IMG/VR virus record: IMGVR_UViG_3300035704_000002
Span: 1-64,000 of that record
Origin: a virus
Strand: one strand, 5' to 3'
DNA: 64,000 nucleotides
Shown here: piece after piece, positions 2,643 through 60,755 of the stretch
Layout: each line of letters begins with the position of its first letter
Numbering within the stretch: the stretch's first letter is position 1
Translations under genes and position numbers: made by a program
The notes under the pieces: generated by a model
Told to the model about the DNA's origin: nothing
The model's database searches: none
What the model saw: only the letters and a program-made list of their open reading frames with translations

Positions 2643-2770
2643 CACGACGGGCATGTAAACGCACCACACGCCTGACGGTTGTTCGCACTCCGGCACTTGA
2701 TGCGCAGCCCATCCAGCTCGACCGGCGCCAGTTCCCGATCGGGCGGCGTTGGTGATGTGGCCATCGGCAT
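2642..2770 (-). CDS. 42-aa cysteine-containing small protein
   Basis: It starts at ATG 2770, directly after the stop at 2772-2774, and ends by a TGATG overlap with the next gene. The peptide contains IKCRSANNRQACGAFTCPS with three cysteines, which looks like a small metal-binding knuckle. Unrecognised, but the coupling at its end supports it. Confidence 0.5.
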   Translation of the reverse strand: MPMATSPTPPDRELAPVELDGLRIKCRSANNRQACGAFTCPS

Positions 2771-2771
2771 C

Positions 2772-3011
2772 TCAGATCGGTTCGATGTGGACGGATTCCA
2801 CTCGGATGTGAACGCGCGCCCGGCTGGTCGGCATACCGGCCGGCAGTTGGCCGACGCGGTGGAACGACACTGGCGTGACCTTCACGACGCGCGTTCCGTC
2901 CGGCAGTGTGATCAGGCTGGCGTTGAACTGGCCGAGCGCGCTCAGGATGTCGATCGGTTCGCCGGTGATCGTCTCGGCGGTAACCAGGAACTCGATCGAG
3001 TTCGGCGTCAT
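2772..3011 (-). CDS. Hypothetical protein, 79 aa
   Basis: The ATG at 3011 overlaps the upstream stop (ATGA). The sequence looks like a small beta-rich fold (IEFLVTAETITGEP, TRVVKVTPVSFHRV, ARVHIRVESVHIEPI). No family recognised. Confidence 0.7.
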   Translation of the reverse strand: MTPNSIEFLVTAETITGEPIDILSALGQFNASLITLPDGTRVVKVTPVSFHRVGQLPAGMPTSRARVHIRVESVHIEPI

Positions 3012-3334
3012 GGCGACACCGCGAGGGTGGCGGCCAGCCGGTCGCGGTGCGCGGTCAACTCCGTGATCACCTTGTTCAGGTCGGCGACGATCTGCCCGGT
3101 GAACTCGCGTACCTTCGCGTCGACTTCCCCGCTCGGGTAGCAGGTTCCGAACGCCACCGTGTTGACCGTGACGGTCTCGCCGGACACGTCCACATACTCA
3201 GCGTTCAGGCCGTGGTGATGGAACGGCGCGCTGGCCAGCACGCCGAGCTGGCGATGCAAGCTCGGGTGCCGACAGCACTCCAGCGGCGCGCGGGTGTCGA
3301 GCACCCACCGGGACGCGGTGCCCTCCCGGTTCAT
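3008..3334 (-). CDS. Hypothetical protein, 108 aa
   Basis: ATG 3334 overlaps the upstream stop (ATGA). The N-terminal half has CCRHPSLH and FHHHGLN, rich in Cys and His; the last 40 residues are predicted helical (VADLNKVITELTAHRDRLA). A metal site is possible. Function unknown. Confidence 0.7.
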   Translation of the reverse strand: MNREGTASRWVLDTRAPLECCRHPSLHRQLGVLASAPFHHHGLNAEYVDVSGETVTVNTVAFGTCYPSGEVDAKVREFTGQIVADLNKVITELTAHRDRLAATLAVSP

Positions 3335-3597
3335 GCGATCACGGTCCAGCAGGCTTCGATCAGGCCGATGTCGCTGCGAACGGATTGGGCGTCGGTGACC
3401 AGTTCCCGCGCGCTGGCCAGGAATCGGCGCTTACCGTCGCTCGTGGACGCGGCCAGCGCGCTGTTCACCGCGTCGTCGGCCTGCGCCAGCAGATCGGCCT
3501 CCTGCGCGATCAGCTCGGCGTGGCGGGCGTCCAGCGCGGTGGTCGCGCTGGCCAGGTCGGTGATGGACGACAGGCCGGTCAGGGTTGGGGCGGACAT
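3331..3597 (-). CDS. Helical coiled-coil-like small protein, 88 aa
   Basis: ATG 3597 is preceded by CGGAGGTC at good spacing. Residues 13-55 are Ala/Gln/Glu/Asp-rich with heptad-like hydrophobics (HAELIAQEADLLAQADDAV), suggesting a coiled coil. It is followed by ATGA coupling to the next gene. Not recognised. Confidence 0.7.
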   Translation of the reverse strand: MSAPTLTGLSSITDLASATTALDARHAELIAQEADLLAQADDAVNSALAASTSDGKRRFLASARELVTDAQSVRSDIGLIEACWTVIA

Positions 3598-3638: not shown

Positions 3639-3911
3639 TTAGCACGCCGCGATGGCGGCCTGGATCAGCGCCCTGTAGCGGGCGCGCAGTCGGATGGAGA
3701 AGCAGTGCAGGCACAGGTGCGAGAGCTTGACCTCATTCGCCAGCAGCACATCGCAGGTGTCGGCGTCATCGGGCACCTCGGCGATCGTGATGGCGGTGGC
3801 GAGCCGAGCGGCACCGTGGCGGCACAGGATGTGCTGCGCGTCGACACCGTGGGCCAGGTGGACCTTGCGGTCCTCGCTGATGCGCCCGATGGTGGTCCGG
3901 TATTCGCTCAT
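3639..3911 (-). CDS. Hypothetical protein, 90 aa
   Basis: First gene of its unit: ATG 3911 lies 6 nt after the -10 of the promoter at 3918-3946, and no Shine-Dalgarno is present, so it is predicted leaderless. It contains CxxxxxxxxC and LCLHCFSIR, possibly a zinc site. Function unknown. Confidence 0.75.
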   Translation of the reverse strand: MSEYRTTIGRISEDRKVHLAHGVDAQHILCRHGAARLATAITIAEVPDDADTCDVLLANEVKLSHLCLHCFSIRLRARYRALIQAAIAAC

Positions 3912-3917
3912 GTTGCT

Positions 3918-3946
3918 AGTCTAGCCTAGCTATTGCGGCTTGTCTA
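3918..3946 (-). promoter_or_regulatory. Family promoter/operator for the gene at 3911
   Basis: Minus strand: -35 TAGACA, 17-nt spacer AGCC...AGGC, -10 TAGACT, 6 nt to ATG. Confidence 0.85.
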
Positions 3947-3964
3947 GTCTTGCCGTGGGACGCG

Positions 3965-3996
3965 GCAGCGCCCGACGCACGGACGCCGGGCGCTGC
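3965..3996 (-). terminator. Hairpin terminator after the 24-aa gene
   Basis: A 10-bp stem (GCAGCGCCCG with CGGGCGCTGC) and 12-nt loop lie just after the stop at 4006 and before the next promoter. No strong T-run follows. Confidence 0.7.
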
Positions 3997-4005
3997 TGAT
4001 GCGGG

Positions 4006-4080
4006 CTACTTGCCGTTGCCCTTGGCCTTTTCCAGAATCTCGTTGGCTTCCTCGATCTCGGTGCCGCCACCGGGGATCAT
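4006..4080 (-). CDS. 24-aa acidic/lysine-rich peptide
   Basis: ATG 4080 follows GAAAGGCGG at suitable spacing. The peptide starts MIPGGGTEIEEANEILEKAK and is a single predicted helix after a Gly-rich start. It lies last in its operon, right before a terminator hairpin. Function unknown; similar mini-proteins are common in actinophages. Confidence 0.55.
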   Translation of the reverse strand: MIPGGGTEIEEANEILEKAKGNGK

Positions 4081-4106
4081 GCGTACCGCCTTTCCTCTCG
4101 AACATC

Positions 4107-4145
4107 ACGCCTGACGGTTGCCGGACGCGAAAACAAATGGGTGCA
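4107..4145 (-). CDS. 13-aa coupled mini-ORF
   Basis: ATG 4145 shares its A with the upstream stop (TGATG). It encodes MHPFVFASGNRQA and then stops. It is too short to judge alone. It could be a coupling leader for the 24-aa gene. Confidence 0.25.
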
Positions 4146-4484
4146 TCAATGGTCGTCGTCGGGTGGTGGTCCGATCAGTTGGCGGCGTGTTGCCGCCAGA
4201 TCGGTGACACCGCGAGCGATCCAGGCGGCTTCAGTGGTCGGACACGGCCACGGGCCGCCGTAGCCACAGGGGCACCGGTCCATACCCGCGTACACATCGG
4301 GCGCGATGCACGTGGTCGTGAGTCGCTTCGCGATCTCGGCCAGTCGCGTCGTCAGGCGCTCCGTCTCGTCAGCCAGCCGTTCGGCCGCGCGCGCCACGTT
4401 CAGCACTTCGGGCTGATAGGTCGCGGTGGGCATGTCGAAATCATGCGTTCGGCGCACGATGTCGATGTCGTCGCTGATCGACAT
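4146..4484 (-). CDS. Hypothetical protein with a Cys cluster, 112 aa
   Basis: Residues 25-60 form a likely helix pair (ARAAERLADETERLTTRLAE). It is followed by CIAPDVYAGMDRCPCGYGG and PWPCPT, four to five cysteines that may bind zinc. The start is 1 nt from the upstream stop. Unrecognised. Confidence 0.65.
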   Translation of the reverse strand: MSISDDIDIVRRTHDFDMPTATYQPEVLNVARAAERLADETERLTTRLAEIAKRLTTTCIAPDVYAGMDRCPCGYGGPWPCPTTEAAWIARGVTDLAATRRQLIGPPPDDDH

Positions 4485-52800: not shown

Positions 52801-55261
52801 CGGCCAAGACCTGCCCGCCATCGCGCCCGCCGACATCACCACCACCGAAGCCCATCCCGCCCCGGCGCCCGGACCCGATCGGGAAGCGCTGGTGCTGGCC
52901 AGCCGGGCACGCATCGACGCCGCCCAGGCCACGATGACCGGCGCCCTGGATGGCTACCTGTCCCGGCTGGACGGCGTGGTCACCTCGCGCGTCAGGGGGC
53001 CGCGTGTGCGCAAGGGCACGCGCTGGTGGGGCGAGAACGCCAAGAGCCTGCACACGCCGATCTCGCTGGGCGGCGTGACCGGCCTGGAGACCAAGGCAGT
53101 GGACACCGGGTACGCGCTGCCGGACAAGCTGGTCGCCGAGGCGGCCGACGTGGCCCGCCCGATCGCGCAGCGAATCGCGCACGACGCCGCGCTGGCCACC
53201 GCCCGGTCGCTGAGTGTGCGTGTGCCCGGCGATCCGGCCGATATCTCGTTCGCGGTGGACCATGTCGCCCTGGAGCAGGCCGTGGATCGGGCCGTGAGCC
53301 GCGTCCAGGCGGTCGCCGACCACCACGCCACCCTGATCCGTGACGCCATCGGCCACGCCGACGCGCACGCCGAAACACTGGACGAACTGCTGGGCCAGGT
53401 GCAGGCCGCGCATGCCCAGGGCGCCGCCTGGGTGCGCATGGCCGGCCGCGCGGTGACCAACGGCCTGATCCAGGATGTGTCCACCGGGCAGGCGCGCGCC
53501 CTGGGCGTCACCCACGCGCAGTGGCTCTGCGTTGCGGCGGACACCAGGGTTTGGGCGCCAGGCGCGATCAATGTCGCTCAGCGATGGAGTGATGAGGGAC
53601 TACTTCGGATCGCGACAGCGCGGACGGTAGGCACCAGAAATATCCTGTCCGTCACCCCGGATCACCCGCTCCTGACTCAACGCGGTTGGATTTCGGCGCG
53701 CGAGATTCACCCAGGAGATCGACTCGTTCGCAGCGCCTTCGCCCAGAGGGAATCGGGGGGTAACCCACACATAGAGAATCTTCCAGCCAAGATCAGCGAG
53801 ACGTTCCGCGCGGCGGCGCAACTTCGCCCGACCGAGCGGATTATGCGCGTTGCGCCATACTTCGATAGCGACAGGCGCGGCAGCTATGTCGATGTTGTAC
53901 CGATCGACAGCGAGCTGCGGGACTGTCTGCAATCCGCGTTCCATGAGCCACGCGCTCAACTGCTGCTCACCCTCTCCGACCTTGACTTGGAGGGCTTGCT
54001 TGAGCTTCGCTCGTTCCGCCACCACGGCATCAGGTTGGCGTCGTCCAACGTTGAGTCCCGCCAGAAAAACGTTGCGCCCAGCAGTAATGTCGACAGCCTC
54101 ATGAGCGATACGGTTGAGACCAGCGGCCGAGTGGCTCCGCCAGGTGATGCCACGCTCCGTTACGATGAGCTTGATCATTTTGAGGGAAGTGTCGAATTCG
54201 ACCGCCAGTGCTCGCGCGGCACGCCCCGCGACGTATCCGGCGACGATGCCTTCCTTGTCCAGTACGCGACGGTTCCAGCGCAGCGCTTGCGCGGCCCTGG
54301 ACTGCTCGGTAGCTTCGGGGTGAGTCGCGAAGCGGATACGAACGGCTTGCTCGGGGGATCGCAGGACACCAATGTCGCGCAGCCTTCTCCTGATGGTTTC
54401 CGCGCTGACTCCCTCCAGAGTTTCCGCGATCTCGCGGGGCGATTCTCCGATTTGGTAACGCTGGACCAGGTTGTCGATGTCGAGTTCGATCCGACCCCTT
54501 GTCACGTGTACGACCTCCAGACGGAAACTGGCTGGTTCGTAGCCGATGGTTACGTCGTACACAATAGTCGCCGTGACGAACACGTGCGCCCCACCCACGT
54601 GCGGGCCGACGGCCAGGTGCGCGAACTGGGCGCGCCGTTCCGAGTGGGCACGGTCGACCTCGCCTATCCGTGCGATCCGGCCGGACTACCCGACACCTGG
54701 CCCGAGGTGGCCGGCTGCCGATGCGGCCTCCTGTTCCGCGCGCCGGCCGCCGACCACGCCCGCGCCCTGGGCACCCTGTCGACCACCCGGCCCAGCCGCG
54801 CTGGGCCGGGTGCGTTGGCCCTGCTGGCGGCCGTGGCGGCTGGGGGCATCGCGGTACACGAGGTGGCCGCGCCGTTGGGGGTGGCCGGTGGCCCGGACGG
54901 CGCGCCGCCACCATCCCGGCAAGTCGTGACCCACCAGTCGGTGGTCGGCTACCGCGCGCTGGAGCAGGAGCTGGCGGTGACGCCGGGGCAGTGGCTGCGC
55001 CTGCCCGGCCCGATCGTGCTGGGGTTGAGTGCGCCGAGCCTGTTCGCCGAGGGCGCGCCGGTGCTCTCGGTGCTGATTCCGGCTGGCGTCACGCTGACCG
55101 TGGCCGGCGGCCTGGCGGTACTGGCGGCCGGCACGGCGCTGGAAGTGCTCTCCAACGGTCCGACCGGCGTACAGGTGCAGGTCGCGGCACCGCAGGCGTC
55201 CTACTCGAAACCTACTCGAAACCTTGCCGCCACGGACGCGATCACCGCGCCGGCCACGTGA
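52778..55261 (+). CDS. MuF-type head morphogenesis protein interrupted by an intein
   Basis: 827 aa as translated, about 481 after splicing. GTG 52778 overlaps the portal end. N-extein: Ala-rich helical, ending GVTHAQWL. Intein: 346 aa, starting at Cys 53528 (CVAADTRVW) and ending GYVVHN at 54565. C-extein begins SRRDEHVRPTHVRADGQVRE, the MuF core with DPAGLPDTWPEVAGCRCGLL. Joined, the exteins restore QWLSRRDEHVRPTH, so the insertion sits in the most conserved spot. The tail (about 130 aa) is a hydrophobic, beta-rich extension. Acts inside or at the portal during head assembly. Confidence 0.85.
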   Translation: MEPASPVNGQDLPAIAPADITTTEAHPAPAPGPDREALVLASRARIDAAQATMTGALDGYLSRLDGVVTSRVRGPRVRKGTRWWGENAKSLHTPISLGGVTGLETKAVDTGYALPDKLVAEAADVARPIAQRIAHDAALATARSLSVRVPGDPADISFAVDHVALEQAVDRAVSRVQAVADHHATLIRDAIGHADAHAETLDELLGQVQAAHAQGAAWVRMAGRAVTNGLIQDVSTGQARALGVTHAQWLCVAADTRVWAPGAINVAQRWSDEGLLRIATARTVGTRNILSVTPDHPLLTQRGWISAREIHPGDRLVRSAFAQRESGGNPHIENLPAKISETFRAAAQLRPTERIMRVAPYFDSDRRGSYVDVVPIDSELRDCLQSAFHEPRAQLLLTLSDLDLEGLLELRSFRHHGIRLASSNVESRQKNVAPSSNVDSLMSDTVETSGRVAPPGDATLRYDELDHFEGSVEFDRQCSRGTPRDVSGDDAFLVQYATVPAQRLRGPGLLGSFGVSREADTNGLLGGSQDTNVAQPSPDGFRADSLQSFRDLAGRFSDLVTLDQVVDVEFDPTPCHVYDLQTETGWFVADGYVVHNSRRDEHVRPTHVRADGQVRELGAPFRVGTVDLAYPCDPAGLPDTWPEVAGCRCGLLFRAPAADHARALGTLSTTRPSRAGPGALALLAAVAAGGIAVHEVAAPLGVAGGPDGAPPPSRQVVTHQSVVGYRALEQELAVTPGQWLRLPGPIVLGLSAPSLFAEGAPVLSVLIPAGVTLTVAGGLAVLAAGTALEVLSNGPTGVQVQVAAPQASYSKPTRNLAATDAITAPAT
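53528..54565 (+). mobile_element. Intein 1 (in the MuF protein)
   Basis: Block A starts with Cys (CVAADTRVW). Block B is SVTPDHPLLTQRGWISAREI, with DHPL in place of TxxH. C-terminal blocks F/G are PCHVYDLQTETGWFVADGYV then VHN, with Ser as +1 residue. The middle 200+ residues in this frame read as nonsense-like but stay open, because the endonuclease is encoded there on the minus strand. The intein is visibly poorer in GC than the exteins. Confidence 0.9.
53600..54505 (-). CDS. Antisense VSR/DUF559-like homing endonuclease inside intein 1
   Basis: 301 aa on the minus strand, wholly within the intein. GTG 54505 has a clear TGGAGGT about 8 nt upstream, itself inside the intein's C-terminal coding part. 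An N-terminal HTH (NLVQRYQIGESPREIAETLE, ETIRRRLRDIGVL) is followed by a linker. The nuclease end reads RYNIDIAAAPVAIEVWRNAH and AKLRRRAERLADLGWKILYV, like DUF559/VSR-type PD-(D/E)xK enzymes. The coding pattern is coherent along its length. Overlap with the splicing domains is about 160 nt at its 3' end and 60 nt at its 5' end. Confidence 0.82.
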   Translation of the reverse strand: MTRGRIELDIDNLVQRYQIGESPREIAETLEGVSAETIRRRLRDIGVLRSPEQAVRIRFATHPEATEQSRAAQALRWNRRVLDKEGIVAGYVAGRAARALAVEFDTSLKMIKLIVTERGITWRSHSAAGLNRIAHEAVDITAGRNVFLAGLNVGRRQPDAVVAERAKLKQALQVKVGEGEQQLSAWLMERGLQTVPQLAVDRYNIDIAAAPVAIEVWRNAHNPLGRAKLRRRAERLADLGWKILYVWVTPRFPLGEGAANESISWVNLARRNPTALSQERVIRGDGQDISGAYRPRCRDPK

Positions 55262-55671: not shown

Positions 55672-56955
55672 GTGGGAGCTGCACCCGAGGTCGCCGACCC
55701 GTGGTCATCCCTGCGTCACACGCTCGAACGCACCAACACCTGGTACACGATGGCGTCGGGACTGGTCAGCGGTGCGCGCAGCCTCTACGCGCACTGGCGG
55801 GAACACAGCACCTTCACCGTGTCGGTGTCCAGCGCCGATCCCGGCTACCAGGACGTGCACGACTGGCTCGTGAACGCCGTACCGCCGGCCCGGCGACGGG
55901 CGCTGATGGTGTGCTCCGGCCAGCCCTATGCCGACTCCTCCGACGCCGTGCCCGCGTCGGACTCGCCGCCGACCGCCAGCGCACCGGTGCGCCTGGCCTA
56001 CGACTCCGGCCACGAACAGACCGTGCTGGTGTCCGGCCGGGCGGTGCGGGTGGCGTTGGCGCGTGGCGAGGACGACAGCGCCGGCTCGGGCGGCATGCGA
56101 CGTGTCCCGCCGGACCGGATCGTGTTCCGATGCCCCAGCCAGGCGGCCCAGCAGGCCGTCATCGACCACCTGATCACGATCATCGGTGACCGTTCGAACC
56201 GGCGCCGGACACCCCAACTGCACGTGCTCTCCTCGTGGGGCGGCTGGACGCGCCGTTCCGACATCCCGCCGCGCAGCCTGGAATCGGTTGTGCTGCGTGC
56301 CGGCCAGATGGAGGAGTTGATCTCTGATCTGGGCGAGTTCCTGAGCGCCGAGACCGAGTACATCCGCAGGGGTCAGCCCTGGCACTACGGCTGCCTGCTG
56401 CAAGGTCCGCCCGGCACCGGCAAGACCAGCATCGTCAAGGCGCTGGCCAGCCACTTCGGCCTGGATCTGTGGCACGTGCCGCTCGGCGACCTCATCAGTG
56501 ACACCAGCCTGTCCACCCTGCTGGCGCAGGTGCATCCGCGTTCCATGCTGCTGCTGGAGGACGTGGACATCTACGCCGCCGCGACCAGCCGCAAGGCCGA
56601 GGCGGAACAGGTGTCGCTCTCGGGTCTGCTCAACGCGCTGGACGGGGTGATCACGCCACACGGCCTGATCATCGTACTGACCAGTAACGAGCCGGCATCC
56701 CTCGATCCCGCGCTGGTCCGGCCCGGCCGCATCGACCGGGTGGAGAACGTCGACCACCTCACCGACGAACAGGCACACCGGCTGTTCGTCACCTTCTACC
56801 AGCAGCCTGCGCGGCTGACCTGGACCATCGCGCCCGAGACCGCCAGCGCCGCCGTCATCGGCGTGTTCAAACACCACCTGCGCGACCCGGACGCGGCCGA
56901 GCGGGCGCTGTGCCGCGCACTGGCACACCAGCCTCCGCTCCCGGTACCGGTGTAG
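55672..56955 (+). CDS. BCS1-like AAA ATPase
   Basis: 427 aa. Residues 1-170 are an N-terminal domain of the BCS1 style. The AAA module has Walker A LLQGPPGTGKTS (about 240), Walker B SMLLLEDVDIYAA (about 290), sensor GLIIVLTSNEPASLDPALVR and arginine-finger RPGRIDRVENV (about 338-358). GTG 55672 follows CAGGAG. BCS1-type ATPases thread or remodel folded proteins; between portal/MuF and capsid genes it may serve head assembly. Phage copies exist but are not common. Confidence 0.85.
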   Translation: MGAAPEVADPWSSLRHTLERTNTWYTMASGLVSGARSLYAHWREHSTFTVSVSSADPGYQDVHDWLVNAVPPARRRALMVCSGQPYADSSDAVPASDSPPTASAPVRLAYDSGHEQTVLVSGRAVRVALARGEDDSAGSGGMRRVPPDRIVFRCPSQAAQQAVIDHLITIIGDRSNRRRTPQLHVLSSWGGWTRRSDIPPRSLESVVLRAGQMEELISDLGEFLSAETEYIRRGQPWHYGCLLQGPPGTGKTSIVKALASHFGLDLWHVPLGDLISDTSLSTLLAQVHPRSMLLLEDVDIYAAATSRKAEAEQVSLSGLLNALDGVITPHGLIIVLTSNEPASLDPALVRPGRIDRVENVDHLTDEQAHRLFVTFYQQPARLTWTIAPETASAAVIGVFKHHLRDPDAAERALCRALAHQPPLPVPV

Positions 56956-57011
56956 CCCCGGATCACCCAGTCGGCGAGCCTGACCGAGAAACCCCGCCGC
57001 ACGCTGCCACG

Positions 57012-60000
57012 ATGTCGCGCGTGGCGAACCGAGACCCCGAAGCAGACGGCCCGCGCACCTCGGGCATGGTGGCGCTGATGCCCACGGCGGCCGATGCCCA
57101 ACGTCTCGCCGTGGACGGCGGCGAAGACCCCGACCAGTTGCACCTCACGCTGGCCTACCTCGGTGACAACGCCACCGGCCTGCCGCCGGAAACCCAGCAG
57201 GCACTCCATCAGGTGATGGGGCACCTGGCAGCCGAGACACCGCCGGTGGACGCCCGCGCCGCCGGGCATCTGCTGCTGAATCCCGACGGTGGCCCGGACG
57301 GTGACCGCACGCCCGTGGCGGCCTACCTGATGTCCGACTCCGACGCGCTCACCCCGCTGCACGAGGCGGCGAAGGCGGCGGCCGGCGCGGCCGACCCGGC
57401 CCTGACCCAGTTCTCGCCGTTCATCCCGCACGTGTCCGGCGCCTACGACCGCGACGCCGGAGCGCTGGGCTACGCCGGACCGGTCAGCTTCGACCGGATG
57501 CGGGTAGCGATCGGCGACGGGCACACCGACTACCCGCTGACCGGCCCGGCGTCCGGGGGCACCGATCCGGATGCCGACGGCGACATTGATGACGGCACCG
57601 GCGTGAACACCGACGACGACCCCACCGTGGGCGATGACGGCGCCAGGTCCGACAAGCCGGAGGGCAAGTCCGTGATCAGCCTGGCCGAGTTGGTGGAGCT
57701 GGCCGAACTGACCAACCTGGTGAGCGAAACCAAGGGCGACGCCCCCGACGGCGGCAACTCCGACGCGCCGCCCCACTCGATGCCCGACGGCAGCTACCAG
57801 ATCAACCATCCCGGCCAGCTCAAGCAGGCCATCAACGCGCTGACCGCCTACCAGGTCGCCAAGGGCAAGCGCGGGGCGCTGCGCAAGCATGTGATGAAGC
57901 ACGCCGCGCGATTGCACGCGCAGAACATGGTGCCACAGTCCATTCAGGACGAAGGCGACGACGACCCCGACGCCAAGAAGGACGCCGCGCCGGAGCCGGT
58001 CGAGACGAAGAACGTCGTGGCCACCCAGGCCGGCGTGGCCAGGTACGGCAAGCCGATCGGGACCGTGCTGGGCGCGCCGCGTGATGCCGCCGCCGCGCAG
58101 GCGCAGAAGGACACCGGCGCGGTCACCGCCTACCAGGATCTGCTCGCCGGTAACACGCGGAGCGTGGAACCGCTGAACACGATGGACCCCAGCAGCCTCG
58201 AAGCACTCACGCGCGTCGCCTACAGCTACAAATCCTCCGATCCGAAGGTCGTGGCACTGCGCGTGCAACTGGCCAACGAGCTGGCCAAACGCGGCCTGAA
58301 GGTCACCAGTTTCGGCGCCCTGGGCGGTGGCGGACCGACCAAGCCCGCCAGGGGCAAGGCGCCGGTCAAGCCGAAGGCGCCCGCGAAGCCGGCCCCGACT
58401 CCAGCGCAGGTTGCCGGCGCGCGCGGCGTGGCCGCGCCGCACGTCCAGGCCAAGGGTGATCTGGACGTCACGGAGGTGGAGTACAAGACGAAGTACACCG
58501 CTGATGACCGGCGCACCATGGCCAAGAAGGGGCAGGCGCTGCCGGATGGTTGCCTCTCTGGTGACACGTTGGTGGCAACTCGCAATGGCTCCGTCCGCAT
58601 TGACGCCCTCCCGTCTGAGTGCGAATTGCTAACTGATCACGGGTGGACGCAAGCTACTGTCTGCGGATTTGGAGTACAGAAACTGCGAGCTGTTGAACTG
58701 TTTGACGGTGTGCGAACCGAGATCGTCCACGCTACGTCAGGTCACAGATGGCTGATTGATGGTGGCGACTGGAGACTCACAGACGATCTGATCGTTGGCG
58801 ACCGCATTCCCCATGTTGATGTATCGAGCAATGATTTCAATGCCGACCTCGTCAACACGGCCCATCAGCGTATTGCACGTAAGGCAAAGCAGACCCCGCA
58901 CCATTCCAGTGCGATGGTCGTGATCAACCTGGAAGCCGGTCCATGTACGACCGGTACGAGTGTTGGCACGATTGATCTTCGGGATGCGATGACAGATAGC
59001 ACACAGGCCGCGCTGACTGGCAAGAAGTGCGTCGAACTCCGCTTGTCCAATGCTGTACTTGCGCCGCAGCATTCCATCTCGGCGACGCATCCAGCGCTCA
59101 TCGGCAACATCCACCCGTTCAGCGCTGGTGCGTGCTCTGTTTTGGCAGCAGAAACGGCAGTCGGTTCGCCGACGCTGATTGCGGATATAGAAATCGGTAT
59201 GCGGTCGTTCGGCGCCGCAGGTGCGGCAGGTGACAAAACCGACATAGCCGACTGGTACACCCTTGGCGTAAACGGACACGGTCATCCCACGAATGCTACC
59301 CGTTCGTGGGAGGTTGTGGGTATCAAAGCCACGCGCCGCATCGAGGAGGTTTTTTGCGCACTGGTTCCAGACTTGCACCGGTTTGTACTAGCCAGTGGCG
59401 TTTTGACCGGAAATAGTTATCCGATCATGGACCGGTCCGACCTGGACTCCGCGATCCGACTACGCGGACGGCACAGCGAATACTCCGCCGATACGGTCGT
59501 CAAGCACATCGTCAAACGCGCCAAGGCGATCGACGCCACCGACATGCTGCCCGACGGCATGGCCGCCGGGGTGCAGGAGAAGCAACTGTCCTGGGACGGC
59601 GCGCCGGACGCGTTCACGGCCGGCGTGCTGCTCGGCCTGTCCGGCCTGGACACCGACGAAGCGCTGGAGCTGAAGGCCGGCCCGCCGGGACACACCTTCG
59701 CCTCGCCCGACCCGAACGCCGCACGGCTGCGCCGGTACTGGGTGTTCGGCAAGGGACGCGCAAAGATCAACTGGGGTGTTCCGGGCGACTTCGACCGCTG
59801 CGTCGCGGAACTCACCAAGTACGTCGGCGACCGCGCCAAGGGCTTGTGCAACATCTACCACCGCTCCGCGCTCGGCGTCGCGCCCGGCCAGGAGGACAAG
59901 CCCGGCCACGCCGTCGCCAAGGCCGTGGGTGCCATGGTGGGTGCCAAGAAGTCCGAGGACGACGAGACCGAAACCAAGGCGCTGACCGCGTTGTGGGTAC

Positions 60001-60755
60001 GCGACCCGGCCGCCGTGGACGGGTGGCGTGCCTACGCGCCCGCGTGGCCACTGGATGACGACCTGATCGCGGAAATGAAAGCGTTGCGTCCCAACAAGCC
60101 CAGCGGTGGCTACGTCGGGGCCGACGACGAGGAGGACAGCCCCGACGGCAACGCGCCCGACGATACGAACAACACCGACTCGGGCACCGACGACGACGTA
60201 CTGTCCGCGCTGGACAACTATGCCGCCATGGCACCACAGATCAGCCCCGAAGACGCCTACATGCAGGCCATCGGCGACCAGATCCCCTGGCAACTGGCCG
60301 CCACCGGCGATCTGGTCAACCCCGACTCGCCCGGTGGTGAAGTGCCTGTGCTACAACGCGAGGAAGCGCGGTTCGGTGAGGCCGGACCGTCCGACGCGGC
60401 CGTGGACGACCTGTCCGGCACCGACGAGGTACCCGACGCCGACGACGCCGGGGCGGATGACGACCCCACCTTCCCCGATGACGGTGATCTGAGCTTCGAC
60501 CCGGACGATACGAACGAGACCGATGACGGCACGGATGGCCCGGATGACGGCGCCGGGGACACCGGCGACGGTTCGAACGAGAGCGACACCGGCGCCGCCA
60601 TTCCGGAGGTGGCCGAACTGCTGGCCGACCTGATGGCCGAACAGGACACGGTGGCCGCGCCGACGGATGACGACGATGCTGGCGAGCCGGAGGAAGACAG
60701 CACGGCGATCACTACCGCCCCGAAGCGCCAGGCCGCCGCCAGTGTTACCGCGTAA
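57012..60755 (+). CDS. Capsid-region protein with 2H phosphoesterase domain and an intein
   Basis: 1247 aa translated, about 959 after splicing. ATG 57012 lies 6 nt after CACGCT. Residues 18-165 have the 2H (LigT-like) pair HLTLAYLGD and FIPHVSGAY. Next comes a helical motif (DGSYQINHPGQLKQAINALT, then HVMKHAARLHAQNMVP). It recurs after the intein (SYPIMDRSDLDSAIRL, HIVKRAKAIDATDMLPDGM), as in actinophage capsid-associated proteins. The intein splits the second DG-SYPI motif. A region with KINWGVPGDFDRCVAELTKY and an acidic tail of about 230 residues end it. Confidence 0.75.
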   Translation: MSRVANRDPEADGPRTSGMVALMPTAADAQRLAVDGGEDPDQLHLTLAYLGDNATGLPPETQQALHQVMGHLAAETPPVDARAAGHLLLNPDGGPDGDRTPVAAYLMSDSDALTPLHEAAKAAAGAADPALTQFSPFIPHVSGAYDRDAGALGYAGPVSFDRMRVAIGDGHTDYPLTGPASGGTDPDADGDIDDGTGVNTDDDPTVGDDGARSDKPEGKSVISLAELVELAELTNLVSETKGDAPDGGNSDAPPHSMPDGSYQINHPGQLKQAINALTAYQVAKGKRGALRKHVMKHAARLHAQNMVPQSIQDEGDDDPDAKKDAAPEPVETKNVVATQAGVARYGKPIGTVLGAPRDAAAAQAQKDTGAVTAYQDLLAGNTRSVEPLNTMDPSSLEALTRVAYSYKSSDPKVVALRVQLANELAKRGLKVTSFGALGGGGPTKPARGKAPVKPKAPAKPAPTPAQVAGARGVAAPHVQAKGDLDVTEVEYKTKYTADDRRTMAKKGQALPDGCLSGDTLVATRNGSVRIDALPSECELLTDHGWTQATVCGFGVQKLRAVELFDGVRTEIVHATSGHRWLIDGGDWRLTDDLIVGDRIPHVDVSSNDFNADLVNTAHQRIARKAKQTPHHSSAMVVINLEAGPCTTGTSVGTIDLRDAMTDSTQAALTGKKCVELRLSNAVLAPQHSISATHPALIGNIHPFSAGACSVLAAETAVGSPTLIADIEIGMRSFGAAGAAGDKTDIADWYTLGVNGHGHPTNATRSWEVVGIKATRRIEEVFCALVPDLHRFVLASGVLTGNSYPIMDRSDLDSAIRLRGRHSEYSADTVVKHIVKRAKAIDATDMLPDGMAAGVQEKQLSWDGAPDAFTAGVLLGLSGLDTDEALELKAGPPGHTFASPDPNAARLRRYWVFGKGRAKINWGVPGDFDRCVAELTKYVGDRAKGLCNIYHRSALGVAPGQEDKPGHAVAKAVGAMVGAKKSEDDETETKALTALWVRDPAAVDGWRAYAPAWPLDDDLIAEMKALRPNKPSGGYVGADDEEDSPDGNAPDDTNNTDSGTDDDVLSALDNYAAMAPQISPEDAYMQAIGDQIPWQLAATGDLVNPDSPGGEVPVLQREEARFGEAGPSDAAVDDLSGTDEVPDADDAGADDDPTFPDDGDLSFDPDDTNETDDGTDGPDDGAGDTGDGSNESDTGAAIPEVAELLADLMAEQDTVAAPTDDDDAGEPEEDSTAITTAPKRQAAASVTA
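58551..59414 (+). mobile_element. Intein 2 (in the 2H/capsid protein)
   Basis: 288 aa from Cys 58551 (CLSGDTLVATRNGSVRIDAL, block A) through TSGHRWLIDGGDWRLTDDLI (block B region) to RRIEEVFCALVPDLHRFVLA and LTGN, with Ser as +1. GC content falls sharply within it. The central frame is open but carries an endonuclease gene on the opposite strand. Confidence 0.92.
58737..59285 (-). CDS. Antisense endonuclease VII-like HNH homing endonuclease inside intein 2
   Basis: 182 aa from ATG 59285 (the frame is open to 59378). CRTCGAERPHTDFYIRNQRR...CRFC is a zinc ribbon. RRKYSIGQAEFDALLASQRG, LCAICHRI and FQVDHDHRTGMVRGLLC...CN form the recombination endonuclease VII core with its catalytic DHDH and zinc cysteines. 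The gene lies wholly in the intein on the opposite strand. The ribosome binding site is weak (GTGGG). Confidence 0.85.
   Translation of the reverse strand: MTVSVYAKGVPVGYVGFVTCRTCGAERPHTDFYIRNQRRRTDCRFCCQNRARTSAERVDVADERWMRRRDGMLRRKYSIGQAEFDALLASQRGLCAICHRIPKINRANTRTGRTWTGFQVDHDHRTGMVRGLLCLTCNTLMGRVDEVGIEIIARYINMGNAVANDQIVCESPVATINQPSVT

Follow-up and report, generated by a model that had tools for sequence, protein, structure and literature searches.

An endonuclease VII-type gene antisense within an intein of a phage head-maturation protease gene

Introduction

Mobile inteins are usually described with their nuclease as a domain of the intein itself. The locus analysed here raises the question whether a gene of its own, on the opposite DNA strand, can encode the nuclease instead, and what such a gene would contribute to the intein. 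The locus lies in a stretch of 64 kb, referred to as the window, which represents the first half of an IMG/VR virus record of 128,202 bases. Two inteins of this window, intein 1 and intein 2, are considered, with the emphasis on intein 2.

Intein 2 and its host gene

The features of the plus strand are listed below (a slash marks an insertion junction).

56910 to 60755, plus strand: host gene, phage head-maturation protease / MuF-type fusion protein, a single ORF that is open through the intein
58551 to 59414, plus strand: intein 2, 288 codons, exact insert between ALPDG and SYPI (ALPDG/CLSGDT...LTGN/SYPI)
58551 to 58814, plus strand: N-terminal splicing region with Cys1, block A (CLSGDTLV), block B (T-x-x-H, here TSGH) and L..GD
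59304 to 59414, plus strand: C-terminal splicing region, EEVFCALVPDLHRFVLASGVLTGN, then Ser

The host gene matches PHROG profiles for head maturation protease (phrog_18402, 2.8e-22) as well as phrog_2659 (8.3e-30) and phrog_6439 (2.1e-22), and tblastn retrieves capsid maturation proteases and MuF-like fusion proteins of Streptomyces phages. With a GC content of 0.567 versus 0.699 in the exteins, base composition suggests a foreign origin of intein 2.

The splicing residues were compared between three lineages, namely the window and the contigs L008 and L109 described below. C1 and G4-D5-T6 are invariant, and the N-terminal splicing region is conserved in L008 and L109 (pLDDT 46-71 in the window, 10-residue means). 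Block B reads TSGH in the window, TLGH in L008 and SLGH in L109. In block G the terminal Asn and the +1 Ser are present, while the penultimate residue is Gly and not His in all three lineages (TGN). A penultimate His is usual in inteins but not universal.

Profile searches with intein 2 matched the DnaB, DnaE and RadA inteins, each weakly. The AlphaFold2 model of the plus product, calculated from three input sequences, has a low mean pLDDT of 38.4; residues 89-250 stay at about 25, and the splicing ends are folded with moderate confidence. Using this low-confidence model, the top Foldseek matches are all inteins, the first four with E<1e-3 and the rest of those listed being inteins or other Hint domains. 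Pfam, NCBIfam and PHROGs yielded no nuclease match for the plus reading of the insert, in agreement with the sequence-only reading that intein 2 lacks an in-frame nuclease.

The antisense reading frame

The minus strand of intein 2 contains the following features.

58737 to 59378, minus strand: endonuclease VII-type ORF, 213 aa from GTG 59378, facing intein codons 63-276
58812 to 59237, minus strand: nuclease core, aa 48-189, with two CxxC pairs, DHDH and RGLLC..CN
59286 to 59310, minus strand: perfect 8-bp hairpin, CCCACGAA-N9-TTCGTGGG, abutting an alternative start ATG 59285 (aa 32)

The codons of the minus ORF are in register with the intein frame (phase 0). All four motifs from which an antisense gene of the endonuclease VII type had been proposed (CRTCG, CAIC, VDHDHRTG and CN) are located in this ORF, and the assignment is borne out by matches to Pfam Endonuclease_7 (PF02945, 62.0 bits at a cut-off of 23.6, E=5.2e-17) and to PHROG endonuclease VII (phrog_2633, 1.3e-24). 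Further profile matches are Hpy99I (1.5e-10) and T4 EndoVII (5.3e-8), and the homing endonuclease F-CphI is among the top matches. The catalytic residues D152, H153 and H155, the catalytic Asn (N169) and the zinc cysteines C51, C54, C74, C77, C126 and C129 are conserved.

The nuclease core is located opposite the intein linker and not opposite the splicing blocks. Correspondingly, the structural model of the minus product is confident in the core (pLDDT 56-86, 10-residue means) but not in the tails that face the splicing blocks. The top fold match in Foldseek is again Hpy99I (E=0.012).

Neither a sigma-70-like promoter between 58400 and 59700 nor a clear Shine-Dalgarno sequence before GTG 59378 or ATG 59285 was found. 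Perfect 8-bp stems such as the one next to ATG 59285 occur twice in intein 2, compared to a mean of 0.2 in Markov-resampled sequences. One may speculate that this hairpin controls translation of the nuclease.

Chance open frame or real gene

Antisense frames are cheap at 70% GC, therefore homology has to be considered. Eight other antisense ORFs of 227-548 aa are located opposite genes in the GC-rich window and none of them has a Pfam match, hence ORF length proves little here. When the window nuclease was recoded at random with synonymous codons, the opposite frame remained free of stops in 1-5% of trials (GC 0.57-0.70). For two enterobacterial nucleases of the intein-1 class described below (L119 and L121, GC 0.48-0.52) this was the case in at most 0.025% of trials. 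As judged from the sequences, it is homology combined with conservation in an independent phage that exceeds chance.

Relatives at the intein-2 site and selection on the two strands

A scan for the junction PDG/CL.GDT across 2.9 million viral contigs yielded L007 and L008, a near-identical pair of phages clearly diverged from the window phage in host gene, intein and nuclease alike. Both have an intein at the intein-2 site (ALPDG/CLSGDT...ITGN/SFPI) and an antisense ORF of 265 aa each with 47% identity to the window nuclease, in which the core motifs (CxxC, DHDH, RGLLC..CN) are retained. A minus frame broken in close homologues next to an intact plus frame had been named as evidence against the gene; what is found at this degree of divergence is a retained nuclease, and in close homologues of the intein-1 class the minus frame is likewise retained, under purifying selection (see below).

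Since the frames are in register, minus position 3 is opposite plus position 1. In the nuclease core (140 codons) the window and L008 differ at 43/40/92 minus positions 1/2/3 (p=1.5e-5); the splicing blocks have 83 differences at plus position 3 versus 44 at plus position 1 (p=3e-4). By these counts, the wobble position changes strand at the start of the nuclease core. Intein 2 with an antisense nuclease is represented by two lineages, the window and L007/L008; selection between close homologues was assessed in the intein-1 class.

Two further contigs show other states of the same site. L109 (reverse complement 2755-3504) has an intein at this site whose EndoVII-type ORF runs in the sense direction but in a frame other than that of the intein. 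In L010 the intein site is empty (ALPDGSFPI uninterrupted), and an EndoVII ORF lies antisense in the intein-2 host gene at 3795-4430, slightly upstream of the empty site; the plus frame is open for 681 codons across it. L010 possibly represents a pre-intein state. In the nuclease tree the window, L008 and L010 form a clade (support 95/81) while L109 is placed elsewhere. Either one entry of a nuclease at the intein-2 site or several would agree with this tree.

Among 80 EndoVII relatives only L009 (the contig of L007) and L010 are nested antisense in a related gene; the remaining long antisense frames that were inspected have no intein or host-gene homology. No relatives were obtained when viral contigs were searched with the single sequences of the nuclease and of intein 2, nor when genome contigs were searched with the nuclease alignment; the peptide NTRTGRTW, used as a scan pattern, led to no further cases. 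Junction-pattern matches in genome contigs as well as C-junction matches other than L109 were rejected as chance.

Intein 1 and the antisense PD-(D/E)xK class

A second arrangement of this kind is found upstream in the window.

53528 to 54565, plus strand: intein 1, 346 codons in a MuF-type gene, site QWL/C...VVHN/SRRDEHVRPTH
53600 to 54598, minus strand: PD-(D/E)xK (MTES_1575-like) nuclease ORF of intein 1, 332 aa from GTG

Intein 1 matches PF14890 (3.8e-7, below its cut-off) and TIGR01443 (0.038). Its nuclease matches PF18741 (MTES_1575-like REase, 2.4e-5, below the family cut-off) and, by profile, 3hrl (6e-4) and the mobile-intron nuclease 3r3p (6e-3). We examined the best 80 relatives of this nuclease in IMG/VR, which represent 65 clusters at 90% identity. 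All 80 are codon-aligned antisense inside ORFs with intein blocks. Both N- and C-terminal blocks were found in 79 of the 80, 26 of these with GC <0.55. Relatives also occur in phages of Gordonia, Klebsiella, Pseudomonas, Escherichia and Salmonella, where they are encoded antisense to genes that are annotated as MuF, head morphogenesis or hypothetical. As read from these sequences, backward-coded nucleases in inteins are widespread in phages.

In the central region of three Gordonia phage inteins pN/pS is 0.25-0.38 for the minus frame versus 0.68-0.80 for the plus frame, and plus pN/pS is 0.07-0.24 in the N-terminal splicing blocks. Seven inteins of Guernseyvirinae (GC near 0.52) differ in the centre at 629/150/307 plus positions 1/2/3 (all pairs summed) and in blocks F-G at 22/6/74. 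For the Jerseyvirus pairs listed the centre has pN/pS values of 0.09-0.30 on the minus and 0.66-1.59 on the plus strand. Judged by these substitutions, purifying selection acts on the minus frame in close phages of Salmonella and Gordonia, in a region where it does not act on the plus frame.

Seven Salmonella and E. coli head-morphogenesis genes of the Guernseyvirinae type (L121, L212, L213, L214, L216, L217, L218) contain inteins with antisense PD-(D/E)xK nucleases, and their close relatives include intein-free alleles. Jerseyvirus vB_SenS_ER10, for instance, has the empty site HPN/CRS in a protein that is 93.7% identical to the spliced LSPA1 exteins. Of 451 matching phage records, 58 cover the intein-bearing Jerseyvirus gene to at least 80%. 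That the Jerseyvirus capsid gene contains an intein is already known (PMC8425127), and the passages of that paper on the intein make no mention of an antisense nuclease.

Two side observations concern this class. A plus-strand motif resembling DFHGD..DGEVEVV recurs in several distant phages in the linker after block B (L002, L003, L004, L006, L119, L120, L121). In Virus Rctr197k (L006, 616-1968) the gene annotated as head morphogenesis resembles a deoxycytidylate deaminase (PCVAC ... CAKRL), so that here an intein with antisense nuclease is located within an apparent deaminase gene.

Route of entry and orientation

The two neighbouring nucleases have unrelated folds: a His-Me finger (EndoVII/Hpy99I) in intein 2 and PD-(D/E)xK, MTES_1575/Vsr-like, in intein 1. 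Antisense nucleases thus entered inteins at least twice, as had been claimed from the sequence. The further proposal of a general route by which endonucleases invade inteins in reverse fares differently in its two parts. Generality is supported by the 80 of 80 sampled antisense relatives of nuclease 1. A route that is specifically in reverse is not supported, because the out-of-frame EndoVII-type ORFs of L109 and of an intein in the TerL gene of Gordonia phage BobBob (L219 1311-1847) are in sense, and the nuclease of L010 is antisense beside an empty site. The route therefore needs to be widened. It is better stated that a separately translated nuclease ORF may take any frame compatible with an uninterrupted intein frame, with the in-register antisense frame being favourable because only TTA, CTA and TCA have to be avoided. 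That inteins become mobile units in this way, through cleavage of the empty site, is inferred.

Collaborative homing was described for introns: a splicing element that has no nuclease is joined by a free-standing endonuclease already adapted to the insertion site (PMC2988022). The states seen in L010, L007/L008 and L109 resemble this prediction, i.e. a nuclease near its target with the splicing element joining later, and by analogy suggest such a process. Other than in the original proposal, the splicing elements would be inteins.

Proposed working of intein 2 and alternative explanations

We have high confidence that intein 2 is an intein with a selected, antisense and separately coded nuclease, and moderate confidence that this nuclease homes. 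The complete scheme, in which a plus-strand intein is combined with a minus-strand enzyme of the EndoVII type that cuts intein-free copies whereby intein and nuclease are copied together, is what we consider the likely explanation. Here the late capsid transcript would give a precursor protein from which the intein presumably splices out. The plus stretch opposite the nuclease would be an unstructured linker that need only be free of stops, which the nuclease ORF would permit by avoiding the three codons given above. A transcript of the minus strand would provide the nuclease. In mixed infections it would most likely cut intein-free alleles at ALPDG/SYPI, and repair of the cut allele would copy in intein and nuclease jointly. 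Double coding would be tolerated because the essential part of each protein faces a dispensable part of the other.

The best surviving alternative regards nuclease and intein as two independent selfish elements, the nuclease being a hitchhiker in a pre-existing mini-intein or gene that does not drive the spread of the intein. The sister nuclease of L010, antisense in the same gene while the intein site is empty, agrees with this, as does the L109 intein, which occupies the intein-2 site but contains an EndoVII ORF of a different lineage in sense. Together the two cases give the impression that entry occurred repeatedly and separately. We nevertheless give independent elements only a minor chance: the constant pairing throughout the sampled intein-1 class fits a joint mobile unit, and collaborative homing (PMC2988022) would unite both elements after entry anyway.

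A more doubtful alternative is that the nuclease is a recombination or debranching enzyme of the phage, a resolvase like T4 gp49, or a housekeeping nuclease that is found in an intein by chance. T4 endonuclease VII does belong to the same family, and many phages have EndoVII genes outside inteins. The intein-2 nuclease however occupies the usual position of a homing nuclease inside an intein, is absent from most homologues of the host gene, has a foreign base composition and has F-CphI among its top matches. In addition, the unrelated PD-(D/E)xK class is placed alike and its intein-free alleles exist. A housekeeping or recombination role therefore appears unlikely.

Very improbable, in our view, is a plus product that is no splicing intein at all but a nuclease insertion of the ShiLan kind, retained in the protein in the form of an unstructured loop. 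The penultimate Gly in place of His would be in line with this, and the ShiLan element has such insertions without splicing domains (PMC11855218), of which L010 may be one. Against a retained loop, L008 shares Cys1, block A, TxxH and the terminal Asn followed by Ser, and so does L109 apart from an S in place of T in block B; the intein matches in Foldseek point in the same direction. That the minus ORF is a mere by-product of a GC-rich plus gene, its motifs being coincidence or relic, has next to no probability and a chance ORF was rejected: as often as such frames are open at 70% GC, the eight others of the window are without Pfam match while this one reaches E=5e-17, its core is kept in L007/L008 with the wobble on the minus strand, and the parallel class exists at GC 0.41-0.55, where the recoding of L119 and L121 rarely kept the frame open.

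Known systems and significance

The likely scheme of an intein with a separate minus-strand homing nuclease shares with canonical mobile inteins (in-frame LAGLIDADG or HNH domain) that a nuclease is enclosed by splicing blocks, A and B on one side and F and G on the other, and that the interrupted gene is essential to the phage and is entered at a conserved motif. It differs in that the nuclease is outside the intein polypeptide, on the opposite strand in register, and needs its own expression. ShiLan and Pacc40 are out-of-frame hidden HNH insertions in phage methylases in which no splicing domains were found (PMC11855218). As in intein 2, a phage nuclease with presumed homing is hidden in another frame while the host frame stays open; they are in sense, however, whereas intein 2 has splicing blocks and an antisense nuclease. 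Antisense His-Cys homing endonuclease genes are known from nuclear group I introns, with cleavage demonstrated for I-DsqI (PMC9548176). There too the gene is opposite to the strand of a self-splicing element, but the carrier is an RNA intron whose opposite strand may close, while both strands of intein 2 are open reading frames.

At the level of the enzymes, F-CphI and other free-standing homing endonucleases of phages that are EndoVII-like (Synechococcus phage S-PM2) are the best-scoring phage relatives of the intein-2 nuclease and share the zinc-finger DHDH..CN architecture; F-CphI is free-standing beside its target, the intein-2 nuclease inside the intein. Analogously, the nuclease of intein 1 resembles, by profile, the PD-(D/E)xK mobile-intron nuclease of the I-Bth0305I type (PDB 3r3p) and MTES_1575 REases, yet nucleases of this class are carried by inteins, on the antisense strand, and not by an intron, and they have a helix-turn-helix N-terminus. 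Searches of open papers found no antisense nuclease in an intein; a preprint of 2025 on non-canonical inteins of actinophages may cover some of the same ground.

If the nuclease of an intein can be a separate gene on the opposite strand, mobility may extend to many "mini-inteins" whose long linkers have had no explanation, and their nucleases would escape annotation pipelines. We tentatively go further, to a generalization that may well hold although we would not yet call it probable: antisense nucleases could be a major overlooked mobility route of phage inteins, in which essential parts lie opposite dispensable ones, early nuclease expression is uncoupled from late capsid expression, and unrelated folds entered repeatedly by collaborative homing. 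The cases extend to well-studied Salmonella Jerseyviruses, so that homing is testable there. Intein 2 itself is a clean natural case of two proteins on opposite strands, with selection visibly switching strand along the DNA. Moreover, a two-element origin of mobile inteins becomes directly testable, since one phage gene is seen in three states: with the nuclease antisense but no intein, with the nuclease antisense inside an intein, and with the nuclease inside an intein in sense but out of frame.

Overlapping reading frames are also annotated in the helicase region of Pectobacterium phage Amona (L209 1575-4267), comprising an intein-like N-part, a LAGLIDADG ORF and a helicase C-part, which may be a fractured gene.
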